In this document: positions 2,020 through 41,437 of the stretch, in pieces
Numbering within the stretch: the first letter of the stretch is position 1
Layout: each line of letters starts with the position of its first letter
Assembly: GCA_014360645.1 (NCBI GenBank)
Contig: JACIXD010000006.1
Coordinates: 143,940-207,939, forward strand
Direction: 5' to 3'
Source: Actinomycetota bacterium
Lineage (GTDB): Bacteria > Actinomycetota > Geothermincolia > Geothermincolales > RBG-13-55-18
Length of the DNA: 64,000 nt
Program-made: the position numbers and the translations under genes
The notes under the pieces: model-generated
What the model was told of the DNA's origin: nothing
Database searches by the model: none
Seen by the model: only the letters and a program-made list of their open reading frames with translations

Positions 2020-2332
2020 GCCCCTTCTCTCCTCGGGGGTATTGTCTCTTATTCTCCGATGATGCAGCGTCGCTTCAGCTAATCCCCGCAGTCGCAAAGG
2101 CGCCCGTTCTCCCTTGCCTACGACCACTGACCGGCGGCCCAGGCCGGAAGAAATATGAAAAAGCAACCCCACCCGGGAACCGGGGGTCGGCACGAAGCGA
2201 CATCCGCGAGCGGCACACCCGAGGGAAAGGATTTCCTTGCGGACATGCAGCACGCCAACGCGGAGCGAGGGCCGTTACCCGCGGGCCCGGGCCGGAAGAT
2301 GTCCCATGTCCGGGGCTGACCCCACTCTTCTT
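2020..2332. repeat. Intergenic region with a degenerate dispersed repeat
   Basis: This region separates the DUF167 gene from the 3' end of divIVA and holds no convincing gene. From 2172 to about 2323 it resembles 32418-32540 plus 32960-32984. Both places carry CCCGGGAACCGGGGGTCGGC followed by ACGA(A/G)GCGACAT and GCGGCA, then a GCACG...GCGA.GGCCGT...CGGGCC...CGGAA stretch. The region ends with the 25-base motif at 2299-2323, which begins ATGTCCCATGTCCGGGGC and ends TGACCCC. The motif lies just downstream of the divIVA stop codon. Nothing like a transposase is present. Confidence 0.7.
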
Positions 2333-3403
2333 TTATTCCCAGAAGAAGTGTTTTTCGCTCCCACCCGGTTCCTCCGGCGGGGGAGGCGGCGGCGGGGCGG
2401 GTGGCGCCTCCTGCTCCATGCTGCGCCGCATGAGCTCCATCTCTTCCTCGGGAGTGAGGAGCGGGCGCCTCGCCTGCGGAGCCGGTCCGGCGTCGGGTCT
2501 GGGCTCGCCGGGAGAGGGCACCCTGGAGGGAGCGAACTCATCGGGCAGGACGGACGGCTCCGCCGGCGTGAAGGCTGGCGCGGGACCGCTCTCCACGGAA
2601 GGCGCGCCGGCGGGCTCGGCCGCCGGGGGCGCCTGTTCGTATGCGGGAGCTGCAGGTCCGGGCGCCGACGCCAACGGCTCGGCAGCCGGCGCCATGGTCA
2701 GCGGGGGAGGCGAATAGGGCGGGGTCTCCACCTCCGCCGGCGCCCTATAACGGCCAAAGTCCGGCTCGGGGATGGAAGGAGCTGCCATCTCCTCGGCCGC
2801 GGCCGGTGGTGCGAGGGGCTCGGCGGGGGCAGGGGCCACCTCCAGCGAGGGCTCCGCCGGCGGTGGCGCGGGCTCGGGTGCCACCCGGGCCTCAGCTGCG
2901 GGAGCAGGCGCGGCGGCGGCCACGGGTTCCTCACGCAGCTCGGCGGCCGCAAGCCTCCCCTCGTAGTCCTTCATCAACGCCCGGTTCTTATCCAGGAGTT
3001 CGTTGATGGTCGCAATGTAGTTCATCACCTGGTCCCTGATGCCCGCGAAGGCCTGGGAGATGCGGCTGCGCTCCGCCCTTGCCTCCTCGAGCATACGCAG
3101 GCTCTGCTCCTGGGCCTCCTTGAGCATGGCATCCGCCTGGTTGCGTGCCTCCATCACGATGTTGTCGGCGCTTTTCTGGGCATTGATGATGGCGTTCTGC
3201 AACGTCTGCTGCATGGAGTCGAACTGGCTCGCCTTCTGCCGCATGGATTCCACCAGCTCGGCCTGCTCCTGGTTGCGGTGCAGCAGTCTTTCGAGCTCAT
3301 CCGCGACCATGTCCAGGAAGGCGTCCACCTCCTCCTTGTTATAACCTCCCACGCGTACGGTGCTGAACTCCTTGTGATGGATATCCATGGGGCCAATAGC
3401 CAA
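2333..3403 (-). CDS. divIVA: DivIVA-family cell division / polar growth protein
   Basis: Coiled-coil scaffold that binds curved membrane at poles and septa. The N-terminus has MDIHHKEFSTVRVGGYNKEE and VDAFLDMVADELERLLHRN, the DivIVA lipid-binding and first coiled-coil motifs. A second heptad-rich segment follows at about residues 60-140. The last 190 or so residues are a low-complexity Pro/Ala/Glu-rich tail ending in polyproline and GGSEKHFFWE. I place the start at TTG 3403 because AAGGAGG (3412-3418) lies 8 bases upstream; the ATG at 3388 has no such site, and a GTG at 3433 is also possible. It is the last gene of the yggT-proC-sepF-yggS series, and the tail is longer than in most family members. 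Confidence 0.9.
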   Translation of the reverse strand: MAIGPMDIHHKEFSTVRVGGYNKEEVDAFLDMVADELERLLHRNQEQAELVESMRQKASQFDSMQQTLQNAIINAQKSADNIVMEARNQADAMLKEAQEQSLRMLEEARAERSRISQAFAGIRDQVMNYIATINELLDKNRALMKDYEGRLAAAELREEPVAAAAPAPAAEARVAPEPAPPPAEPSLEVAPAPAEPLAPPAAAEEMAAPSIPEPDFGRYRAPAEVETPPYSPPPLTMAPAAEPLASAPGPAAPAYEQAPPAAEPAGAPSVESGPAPAFTPAEPSVLPDEFAPSRVPSPGEPRPDAGPAPQARRPLLTPEEEMELMRRSMEQEAPPAPPPPPPPEEPGGSEKHFFWE

Positions 3404-32161: not shown

Positions 32162-32935
32162 GCCTGTAGCGCTCTCTTAACGCGACCTTCATGCCCGCGG
32201 CACCCTCACCGAGCCACCCGGCAGGCGTATCCCGGCCTTCATCCGTCTCCATCATCCATCGTTCCGCGGGTCCCGCCAGGCGGGATCAGCCGGCCGGTCG
32301 TCATCTCGAGGGCGATGAAGACCGGGCACCTCTTCCACATGCCATGCCCGTGATGAGCTGCCGGCAAGGCGATATCGCGAGCGGAAGCGGGATCAACACC
32401 GTTCCTCTGGCGCTCTGCCCGGGAACCGGGGGTCGGCACGAGGCGACATACGATAGCGGCATGCCCGTGAGGAAGGGTGCCTCTGGGTTATGCGGCACGG
32501 GAGCGCGGGGCGAAGGCCGTCACCTCCGGGCCATGGACGGAAAAACCACGCTCAAGAAACCGGGCCGGCTGACCTCCCGGGCAACCCGCGCCTTGCCGCC
32601 GGGTCCGGGACGGAAGAAGGCAGGACGGGCTACTCCATCGGCCGGGGCCTGATATGTCCCATGTCCGGGGCAGGCCTCCCGGACAACCCGCGCCTTGCCG
32701 CCGGGTTCGGGACGGAAGAAGGCAGGACGGGCTACTCCATCGGCCGGGGCCTGATATGTCCCATGTCCGGGGCAGGCCTCCCGGACAACCCGCGCCTTGC
32801 CGCCGGGTTCGGGACGGAAGAAGGCAGGACGGGCTACTCCATCGGCCGGGGCCTGATATGTCCCATGTCCGGGGCAGGCCTCCCGGACAACCCGCGCCTT
32901 GCCGCCGGGTTCGGGACGGAAGAAGGCAGGACGGG
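32162..32935. repeat. Repeat-rich intergenic region
   Basis: About 770 bases between ribH and the HD-GYP gene. From 32344 it holds several related degenerate blocks: GGCATGCCCGTGA-type strings at 32343 and 32459, a GCAAGGCGATATCGCGAGCGG block at 32365-32388 and a longer relative at 32418-32476. The latter two resemble 2172-2230. They are followed by the 102-bp tandem array. No protein-coding gene is supported. Confidence 0.8.
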
Positions 32936-32984
32936 CTACTCCATCGGCCGGGGCGTGTTATGTCCCATGTCCGGGGCTGACCCC
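32567..32984 (+). repeat. 102-bp tandem repeat array ending at the ribH 3' end
   Basis: Three identical 102-bp units begin at 32641, 32743 and 32845, each starting GCCGGGGCCTGATATGTCCC. A degenerate partial copy (32567-32640) precedes them and a partial fourth copy (32947-32984) closes the array, ending in the full 25-base motif at 32960-32984. Each unit carries 18 bases of the motif (from 32654, 32756, 32858). The period is a multiple of three and all frames stay open, so long false ORFs appear. The last part overlaps the ribH 3' coding end. Confidence 0.97.
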
Positions 32985-33442
32985 ATGGATTTGAGGAGGT
33001 TTCCCATCTCCACCGCCGTGAGCGCCGCCTGCCAGCCCTTGTTGCCCTGCTTGGCGCCGGCGCGCTCCACCGCCTGTTCTATGGTGTCCGCGGTGATGAC
33101 CCCGAAGACCGTCGGCACGCCGGAGTCCAGGTTGACGCGGGCGATGCCCTTGGAGACCTCGGCGGCCACGTACTCGAAATGGGGCGTGGATCCCCTGATC
33201 ACCGCCCCCAGGCAGATGACCGCGTCGTACTTCCCGGTCCGCGCCAGTCTCGACGCCGCCAGCGGTATCTCGAAGGAGCCGGGGACCCAGACCACGTCGA
33301 CTCCGTCCATGTCCGCGTCGTGCCTCTTCAAGGCATCCAGCGCCCCGTCCAGCAGGCGCGTGCTGATGAACTCGTTGAACCTGCTCACCACCACCGCGAA
33401 CCTCAGCCCGGTGGCTACCAGGTGCCCTTCGTATACGGCCAT
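32936..33442 (-). CDS. ribH: 6,7-dimethyl-8-ribityllumazine synthase
   Basis: Penultimate enzyme of riboflavin synthesis. [59 protein letters not shown] with the catalytic His, and [17 protein letters not shown] are all present. Start ATG 33442 follows AAAGGAG. The natural C-terminus would be near EMGNLLKSM; the last 15 or so residues ([15 protein letters not shown]) are encoded by the dispersed motif and repeat array, so the stop codon lies inside the repeat. 168 residues in total. Confidence 0.95.
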
Positions 33443-36610: not shown

Positions 36611-36628
36611 GCGTGAGGCCGCCTGGAG

Positions 36629-36736
36629 GTCTTCTCCCATCCGGACTTTCACCGTCGGTACCGGGATTCCACCGGTTCTGCCAAAGGCTCGCGGACTTTC
36701 ACCGCCGGTCGGGGTTTTCACCCTGCCCCGAAGACC
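36629..36736 (-). promoter_or_regulatory. FMN riboswitch (RFN element)
   Basis: The minus strand from 36736 reads GTCTTCGGGGCAGGGTGAAA and continues with CCCCGACCGGCGGT, GAAAGTCCGCGAGC, ACCGGTGGAATCCCGGTACC, GACGGTGAAAGTCCGGATGG and GAGAAGAC. These are the conserved FMN aptamer blocks, in order, with closing P1 strands. It precedes ribD-ribE-ribBA-ribH, so FMN should switch off the whole operon through the downstream terminator. Confidence 0.97.
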
Positions 36737-36753
36737 TGATGATCTCAGTTCGC

Positions 36754-39434: not shown

Positions 39435-40023
39435 CTCCCGGTTCCGCCAGGTACCTGCTCGCCTTGCGCATATAATCGAGACCCGAGTACAGGGTGAGCG
39501 CCACCGCCAGCGCCACCGCCGCCTTCTCCAGCGTGGCGTACGGCTCCTCCTCCCTTTCCATGATCACCATGAGCAGCGCCAGGAGCTGAGAGTTGGTCTT
39601 CAGCTTTCCCCAGATGCTCGCCGGCACCGACGATCCCCTGCTCCCCGCATAGACGCGGAAGAGGGTCATCAGGGCCTCCCTGCCGATGATCAGGCCGGGG
39701 ATCCATGCCGCCAGCCTCCCGCGCACCGCCAGCATCACGAAGGCGGTGGACAGGCAGACCTTGTCCGCCAGGGGATCGAGGAACTGGCCGAGCCTCGTCT
39801 CCTTGCCCTGCTTCCGGGCCAGGTGGCCGTCGAGGTAGTCGGTGGCCGCCGCCGCCAGTACCGCCGCCGCCGCCATGGCGTTCCTCCTGCGGTCGTCGTC
39901 TCTCAGGTAGACGGCGATCACCGGGGCGAGCAGCATGCGCGACACGCTGAGAGCGTTGGGGAGGTTCAAGTTGCTCGCCCGCCGCGGGACGTTCTCATCC
40001 CTTTTCTCCTGCGACCACGCCAT
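39421..40023 (-). CDS. pgsA: CDP-diacylglycerol-glycerol-3-phosphate 3-phosphatidyltransferase-like protein
   Basis: Integral membrane CDP-alcohol phosphotransferase, 200 residues. The signature D-G-x2-A-R-x8-G-x3-D-x3-D is complete in DGHLARKQGKETRLGQFLDP followed by LAD. NLPNALSVSRMLLAPVIAVY is the usual N-terminus of PgsA. Phosphatidylglycerol phosphate synthesis is the best guess from the rimO-pgsA-cinA order; related enzymes use other head groups. The ATG at 40023 overlaps rimO by 29 bases. Confidence 0.9.
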   Translation of the reverse strand: MAWSQEKRDENVPRRASNLNLPNALSVSRMLLAPVIAVYLRDDDRRRNAMAAAAVLAAAATDYLDGHLARKQGKETRLGQFLDPLADKVCLSTAFVMLAVRGRLAAWIPGLIIGREALMTLFRVYAGSRGSSVPASIWGKLKTNSQLLALLMVIMEREEEPYATLEKAAVALAVALTLYSGLDYMRKASRYLAEPGDARD

Positions 40024-41437
40024 GCAGGTCTATCCCTTCCGTGGAGACTATCCTCACCTTCCGGCAGGTCCCGGGCTGCACTCCCGGCGCATCGCGGATG
40101 AAGATGACCCCGTCGACCTCCGGCGCCTCCCTCCAGGACCTTCCCTCCCAGAAACCGGGAGCCTCGGGGCTCTTCCCCTCCACGAGGACGTCGAGTTCCC
40201 TGCCTACCAGCCCCGACGCCTTCTCCCGCATGATCTCCTCCTGGATCTCGGTGAGCTCCGCGATCCTGGAGCGGACGGTTTCCTTTCTCACCGAGACGGG
40301 CAGGGAAAACGCCGGCGTGCCTTCCTCACGAGAATACCCGAAGAGGGCAAGCCAGTCAAAACGCGCCTCACGCACGAAACGGCGCAGCCGCGCGTATGCC
40401 TCTCGACTCTCTCCCGGAAAACCCACCATGAGCGTGGCCCGCACCGCCACCTCGCCTAACCGCTCGCGGGCCCTCTCCAGGAGCTCCAGGTAGGAGCGCG
40501 CGTCGCCCCGCCTCCCCATGGCCCGCAGGACGCCTGCGTCCGCGTGCTGGAAGGGCAGGTCCAGGTAGCTGCACACGCGGGGGTCACGCATGGCCCTCAT
40601 GACCTGGCCGTCCAACCCCTCGGGATGCATGTACATGACGCGGATGCGGAAGTCCCCCTCCAGGGCTGCCAGCTCCTCCAGGAGCCGGTGGAGCCGCGGC
40701 TTGCCGTAGATATCCCGGCCGTACCCGGTGGTGTCCTGGGCCACCAGCACCATCTCCCGCGCCCCGCGCGACGTGAAGAAAAGCGCCTCGTCGCGGATGT
40801 CCTCCACGGTCCTGGATCTCAACCGCCCCCTTATGGCGGGGATGGTACAGAAGGTACAGCGCCTCGAGCATCCCTCGGCGATCTTGATGTACACGAAGCC
40901 TCTTTCCAGGGTGCTCGAAATCCTCCGGTATGGGGTCAGCCCCGGACATGGGACATCCTCCCTCTCTCCCGCGCGCGCGGGAACACCCCTCCCGCCCGCC
41001 GCCTCCCACTCCGGAAGGGCGTCCTCCATTTCCCCGCCGAGATCCCCGGCCACGCATCTCTGCAGTATCTCCGCCACTTTCCGGTATCCCTCGAAGGGGA
41101 GGAAGACGTCCACCTCCGGCAACAGCTCCTCGAGGACCGCCACGCCGTAGCGCGCCACCATGCAGCCCGCCACCACCAGCCTGGCGCCGGTCTCCGCCTT
41201 CAGGTCCGCCAGCTCCAGCACCTCCTCCACCGTCTCCTCGAGTGCGGAAGCGATGAAGGAGCAGGTGTTCACCATGAGCACGCTGGCCTCGCGCGGATGC
41301 GACGCCCTCCTCCAGCCTGCCGCCGCCAGGCGCGTCTCCAAAAGGTCGGAATCCACCTCGTTCTTGGGACACCCCAGCGTAAGAAGGTGGTAACTGAGTC
41401 CGTGGACGTCCGAAAAAGGAGGGTTCTGCCGGTTCAT
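39995..41437 (-). CDS. rimO: Ribosomal protein uS12 methylthiotransferase RimO, carrying a repeat-derived insert
   Basis: Radical-SAM enzyme that methylthiolates an aspartate of S12. HLLTLGCPKNEVDSDLLE and NTCSFI (N-domain), the CxxxCxxC cluster C190/C194/C197 in IAEGCSRRCTFCTIPAIRGR, and the C-terminal TRAM (VDGVIFIRDAPGVQPG) identify it. Residues about 145-178, between the UPF0004 domain and the radical-SAM core, hold an unusual extension. DVPCPGLTP (161-169) is encoded by the same 25-base motif found at 2299 and 32960. The frame stays open. 480 residues versus about 430-450 usual. Confidence 0.95.
   Translation of the reverse strand: MNRQNPPFSDVHGLSYHLLTLGCPKNEVDSDLLETRLAAAGWRRASHPREASVLMVNTCSFIASALEETVEEVLELADLKAETGARLVVAGCMVARYGVAVLEELLPEVDVFLPFEGYRKVAEILQRCVAGDLGGEMEDALPEWEAAGGRGVPARAGEREDVPCPGLTPYRRISSTLERGFVYIKIAEGCSRRCTFCTIPAIRGRLRSRTVEDIRDEALFFTSRGAREMVLVAQDTTGYGRDIYGKPRLHRLLEELAALEGDFRIRVMYMHPEGLDGQVMRAMRDPRVCSYLDLPFQHADAGVLRAMGRRGDARSYLELLERARERLGEVAVRATLMVGFPGESREAYARLRRFVREARFDWLALFGYSREEGTPAFSLPVSVRKETVRSRIAELTEIQEEIMREKASGLVGRELDVLVEGKSPEAPGFWEGRSWREAPEVDGVIFIRDAPGVQPGTCRKVRIVSTEGIDLHGVVAGEKG
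40932..40956 (-). repeat. Copy of the 25-base dispersed motif inside rimO
   Basis: Identical over 25 bases to 2299-2323 and 32960-32984. On the minus strand it begins ATGTCCCATGTCCGGGG and ends CTGACCCC. It is in frame and adds DVPCPGLTP or nearby residues to RimO. Confidence 0.95.

Follow-up and report, generated by a model that had tools for sequence, protein, structure and literature searches.

A dispersed repeat at gene 3' ends of an uncultured actinomycete, the probable terminal inverted repeat of elements served by a resident Y1 transposase

The window, a stretch of 64,000 nucleotides from the draft genome (3.38 Mb in 34 contigs; G000) of an uncultured actinomycete, carries three identical copies of a 25-mer, GGGGTCAGCCCCGGACATGGGACAT, at 2299-2323, 32960-32984 and 40932-40956. 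The initial annotation had placed these copies at divIVA, ribH and rimO, and the positions are borne out; the strands are corrected here, GGGGTCAG being read on the minus strand at 2299 and 32960 and on the plus strand at 40932. The repeat is referred to as F1. Opposite F1 in the window stand, at 2183 and 32429, ends of a third family, F3 (GGGGTCGGCACGARGCGACAT), of which a variant is found near C23:5384. The features are as follows.

2183..2203, plus strand: F3-type end GGGGTCGGCACGAAGCGACAT, bounding element 1 on the side away from F1
2183..2323: element 1, about 141 bp, mixed-end F3...F1
2299..2324, minus strand: F1 end (putative terminal inverted repeat, TIR) at divIVA, with GGGGTCAG at 2323-2316 and the preceding T at 2324
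2333..3388, minus strand: divIVA-like gene, its stop abutting the F1 end
32429..32449, plus strand: F3-type end GGGGTCGGCACGAGGCGACAT, bounding element 2 on the side away from F1
32429..32984: element 2, of mixed ends (F3...F1) and grown to about 556 bp through the 102-bp array
32573..32977: 102-bp tandem array, four units, 98% matches
32936..33442, minus strand: ribH, whose own protein runs on (21-letter continuation) past the stop point of its relatives
32960..32986, minus strand: F1 end (putative TIR) within the ribH 3' end
39995..41437, minus strand: rimO, its frame open through the insertion
40930..40956, plus strand: F1 end within rimO, translated in frame as DVPCPGLTP; it falls in the variable linker that precedes the radical-SAM domain

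At divIVA the outer end of F1 lies 9 nt from the stop codon, and the interior of element 1 matches element 2 (77% over 126 bp). Each unit of the array in element 2 holds F1, namely the 18-base partial copies ATGTCCCATGTCCGGGGC already noticed in the 102-bp units and found again at 32654, 32756 and 32858, and the full end at 32960. In ribH, eleven relatives stop within a few residues of NLLK; here F1 begins at that point, the native stop having been replaced by the F1 insertion, and the protein gains 15 residues. An FMN riboswitch (Rfam RF00050, 113.9 bits) is located at 36625-36739 on the minus strand, ahead of the riboflavin genes including ribH. The third copy, listed at rimO, proved to sit in frame within that gene and not next to it. 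Because the linker is hypervariable among relatives, rimO does not provide a clean empty site. Elsewhere in the genome a sub-family of F1 elements has interiors of about 85-bp tandem units in varying number (C1:255318, C2:7065, C2:205140, C5:179774 and C14:93524; L010, L011, L012, L027, L049). Internal tandem growth seems to be common in F1 elements, the 102-bp array of the window included.

A genome-wide count of the 25-mer, suggested initially as a check, gave 56 exact copies and 94 at up to three mismatches, so that the motif is far from being absent outside the window. The reversed pattern had 0 matches genome-wide, as did the 25-mer in shuffles of the window. Alignment of 86 copies defines an invariant unit, AT/GGGGTCAGCCCCGGACATGGGACA followed by T or A (the slash marks the boundary), of which 24 core positions are nearly invariant, with information content dropping sharply to background on both sides. 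The 26-nt consensus, ATGGGGTCAGCCCCGGACATGGGACA, has no 5' GTAG/GTGG tetranucleotide. The stem proposed for the motif, GGGG-TCAG-CCCC, is present in the sequence but weak (4 bp, -3.9 kcal/mol, z -0.17), a single F1 unit folding no better than shuffles. An Rfam search at the motif gave no match.

Two Y1_Tnp genes are present in the genome, on contigs C1 and C16. The search for a Y1 transposase flanked by the motif, likewise proposed at the outset, led to the first of these (about 131353-132336 on C1, outside the window; 327 aa), which is bounded on both sides by exact inverted F1 copies (CCAATGGGGTCAG...), CCAAT preceding GGGG on each. The flanks form a 31-nt exact inverted repeat, CCAATGGGGTCAGCCCCGGACATGGGACATT, with one copy 264 nt upstream of the start and the other running over the stop, and the right (downstream) copy encodes the last six codons and stop of the transposase, MSHVRG-TGA. 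Matching inverted ends on a Y1 gene that takes its stop codon from the right copy therefore mark F1 as the likely terminal inverted repeat of a RAYT. The C1 protein matches PF01797 (34.5 bits, cut-off 23) with intact HYH and YxxxNP (YIHLNP) motifs, and its C-terminal region is DnaA_C-like (Bac_DnaA_C, E 8.6e-5; 22.9 bits, below the cut-off of 31.5). Its best NCBIfam family, below cut-off, is REP_Tyr_transpos; NCBIfam transpos_IS200 did not match it and a PDB sequence search gave no match. An IS200/IS605 identity was rejected: a TnpA of about 150 aa without TIRs would be expected, and the C1 gene encodes 327 aa between perfect TIRs. The C16 transposase carries a C-terminal HTH_23 (E 4e-5) and its gene lies between copies of a different repeat, F2 (GGGGTCAGATCTTCGATCTTCGA and variants), which occurs 109 times in this genome and in neither congener. 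F2 copies cluster around C16:15266-25337 (C16 gene region: G000:C16:12000-20000, L068) and in the first 17 kb of C4.

Comparison with the congener G016 provides insertion evidence. At C10:51617-53077, between two convergent genes, 1.46 kb are bounded by F1 ends, from CTCTGAT/GGGG to CCCC/ATCAGGAG; at the counterpart in G016 the stops overlap as CTCTAGGAG with no insert. This is a clean empty site in the sister. Similarly, a 268-bp F1...F1 element at C9:25673 corresponds to a compact junction in G016. In the second congener, G017, a gene 3' end is duplicated at the convergent junction of the 1.46 kb element (G017:C14:39830-40080; L176).

Of 81 inner spacers, 27 contained an inverted end core, where 3.7 were expected. 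A 229-bp F1...F1 element, shared by C1:109038 and C16:32153 (95% identical over 266 bp), is MITE-like, and the interior at C12:33042 resembles the 5' region of the transposase (84% over 116 bp). Apparently single F1 ends often face an inverted end of another family; seven F1-F2 pairs were identified (C4:6935, C4:205984, C4:275240, C8:19679, C10:127915, C17:36333, C20:4771). The whole F1...F2 element is common to C17:36333 and C4:205984 (88% over 142 bp), so a mixed element may be mobilised as a single unit. For many F1 copies a partner end could not be recognised. Eight paralogous pairs combine identical F1 24-mers with interiors that are about 5-23% different; similarity to F1 was the criterion by which copies were found, and this creates a bias towards identity, but most of them have zero mismatches. 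Interiors more diverged than their ends are not predicted by simple whole-element transposition.

Eighteen genomes of the order were compared, G016 and G017 being the only congeners. Among them F1 is held by this genome and by genus g4 only (42 copies in G008, 13 in G009, one weak match in G010); neither F1 nor F2 was found in the congeners. G016 and G017 have end families of their own, GGGGTCACGCCTCATTTCATGTC (51 copies) and GGGGTCAAGGCTGGCCATCGGCCT (64 copies), respectively, whose zero-mismatch copies include those flanking each one's own transposase. Within the genus, each end family is thus limited to genomes having its transposase, and about 20 Y1 genes across the order are bounded by inverted repeats starting GGGGTC with a gene-specific tail. 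Abundance of repeats together with the cognate gene holds for F1, F2 and the families of G016 and G017; the exception is G008/G009, where despite the 42 and 13 copies no F1 ends were seen on any transposase found, these being perhaps incompletely sampled. In G008 the copies (e.g. C1:178062, C90:10918, C67:22035) form tight inverted dimers, spaced 60-70 bp and carrying more mismatches, and look like an ageing REPIN population for which no transposase was found.

Conservation of repeat positions between species was tested and dropped, as F1 sites of this genome are matched by only 1 of 22 loci in G016 and 0 of 22 in G017. At C9:19447 and at the transposase locus the sisters carry foreign end families. 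Behind one and the same stop codon the three congeners show three end families (L069:9090 region, C1:131093, syntenic in G016:C101 and G017:C1), a coincidence that may be due to chance because only 1 of the 22 G016 sites coincides. An exact F1 scan of 84,980 species genomes returned only actinomycete MAGs (SURF_21, Zod_Metabat.1188) and two Thermodesulfovibrionia (Nitrospirota) MAGs. The Nitrospirota 24-mer flanks a transposase that is 35% identical to that of C1, also ends in MSHVRG and groups elsewhere in the tree; the loci (L128:4870-5966, L129:1995-3090, L118:4440-4502) include a 63-bp F1 inverted dimer. Horizontal spread of the ends and of the enzyme are both possible. We tentatively consider, as a minor possibility, that the resident transposase overwrites or homogenises GGGGTC-type ends in place, so that 24-nt ends spread independently of elements. 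This would account for identical ends on diverged interiors and for mixed F1/F2/F3 elements, for the differing end families of the sisters behind the same stop, and for one end sequence on unrelated transposases in two phyla.

For positions relative to genes, tandem F1 copies were merged into 85 clusters. With gene calls from a home-made 3-periodic Markov model over about 330 kb around all copies, not a curated annotation, the GGGG end was within 60 nt of a same-strand stop in 48 of the 85 clusters, compared with 4% for random placement, and the other (ACA) end in 2. In 34 clusters the GGGG end is within 15 nt of the stop, and in 16 the stop ends exactly one base before GGGG. The orientation noticed first at divIVA and ribH, with the GGGG side facing the gene 3' end, hence generalises. 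GGGG ends face gene starts in 11 cases, ACA ends in none. The congeners' own families have the same polarity (11/22 versus 0/22, in G016 and in G017), and the inner non-coding interior has a median of 344 nt. Given this stop polarity, GGGG is the outer side, next to genes, and ACA the inner side, towards the non-coding interior. Such strong polarity, with 34 of 85 clusters so close to a stop, might also be expected of a host-selected RNA element kept for its function behind stops, be it a terminator, an mRNA stabiliser or a translation regulator. Identity of the 24-mers although the interiors have diverged would fit, and E. coli REPs at most 15 nt from a stop have been reported to lower translation, according to a citation in PMC12306157. 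We regard an RNA element as unlikely: F1 is absent from both sister species, whose ends are unrelated sequences, its hairpin is weak, copies also lie at gene starts, within rimO and, where paired, in both orientations, and exact copies bound a transposase gene in two phyla.

F1 very probably represents the terminal inverted repeat of a family of small mobile elements that rely on a resident Y1/HUH transposase (RAYT; TIRYT, subclass 2.1.2). Matching ends, dispersal, the confinement of each end family within the genus to genomes with its transposase, the empty site, the sharp AT/GGGG boundaries and the concentration at 3' ends support this. The C1 transposase would recognise F1 on single-stranded DNA, is predicted to cut at AT/GGGG, and would move any DNA enclosed by two inverted GGGGTC-type ends, presumably also where the interior is short and non-coding or where the two ends form a mixed F1/F2 or F1/F3 pair. 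With genes densely packed in the genome, insertions would survive chiefly just behind stops, so that the GGGG end comes to abut genes and the ACA end points inward. The window would then hold one element downstream of divIVA, another, with an internal 102-bp amplification, downstream of ribH, and a solitary end read in frame within the rimO linker. An unexplained repeat of an uncultured lineage is thereby paired with its transposase. Such insertions also change the genes they meet, rewriting their ends (the RibH C-terminus) or placing extra codons within them (RimO), and three congeners with different transposase/end pairs constitute a natural experiment on the joint change of enzyme and ends and on settling behind stops.

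The initial annotation had likened the motif to REP-type elements mobilised by RAYTs. The link between transposase and ends holds, whereas a GTAG-tagged palindromic REP does not, F1 being a GGGGWSAS TIR of the TIRYT branch. That F1 belongs to the canonical GTAG-tagged palindromic REP/REPIN family of the gammaproteobacterial RAYT groups is highly improbable. Such systems (Nunvar 2010, PMC2817692; Bertels and Rainey 2011, PMC3116915) do have in common with F1 the transposase superfamily, a gene between two inverted repeats, high copy number, cognate repeats found mostly where the gene is and many of them near gene 3' ends, and G008 even has tight inverted dimers. Yet both defining features fail, F1 having neither the GTAG/GTGG tag nor a conserved palindrome (unit fold z -0.17), and its copies are here mostly single or mixed-end as opposed to the tight REPINs of RAYT systems. 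Moreover, proteins of subclass 2.1 typically have such a DnaA_C-like C-terminus, and the survey of that subclass found no REPs (PMC6006769). F1 works like a REP/RAYT system, and membership among GTAG REPs fails on tag and hairpin. A chromosomal DNA signal (uptake sequence, recombination or partition site) would be a short, conserved, dispersed, non-coding word as well, and is hardly credible for a species-specific repeat that bounds a transposase gene and flanks insertions as inverted pairs, one sister having the site empty.

The F1 system fits the TIRYT/TIRtron class, subclass 2.1 (2.1.2). A literature search with the literal 8-mer GGGGTCAG returned only unrelated papers, and the class was reached via the name TIRYT. 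TIRtrons, as presented in the passages of PMC3733652 drawn on here (Di Nocera, De Gregorio and Rocco 2013), have a Y1 transposase and long TIRs sharing GGGGWSAS; as with F1, the TIR sometimes overlaps the 3' end of the transposase gene and dispersed TIR families are moderately abundant. The preference for gene 3' ends was, in the same passages, already known for GTAG and CGTC REPs. The 2018 survey of TnpA_Y1 defined subclass 2.1 by a Y1 core with a Bac_DnaA_C- or HTH_23-like C-terminus and GGGG[AT][CG]A[CG] flanking repeats, placed most TIRYTs there and found no REP-like repeats near those genes (PMC6006769). Y1 domain, GGGGWSAS flanks, C-terminal HTH and dispersed TIRs (94 F1, 109 F2) all occur here. 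Since GGGGTCAG fits GGGGWSAS and the tail is the DnaA_C/HTH type of subclass 2.1, the system appears as a well-populated new member of the TIRYT class. In contrast to that survey, both resident genes have large dispersed end families; DnaA_C-tailed transposases, reported in 2018 without nearby REPs, can thus keep such families. Set against TIRtrons as described in those passages of PMC3733652, differences are the two co-resident families (about 94 and 109 copies), mixed-end elements, a measured stop polarity, the same ends on distant transposases of two phyla, and the uncultured actinomycete lineage. The kind of system is known; new details are its hybrid-ended elements, interiors that have diverged between identical ends, and a distant Nitrospirota transposase bounded by these same ends.
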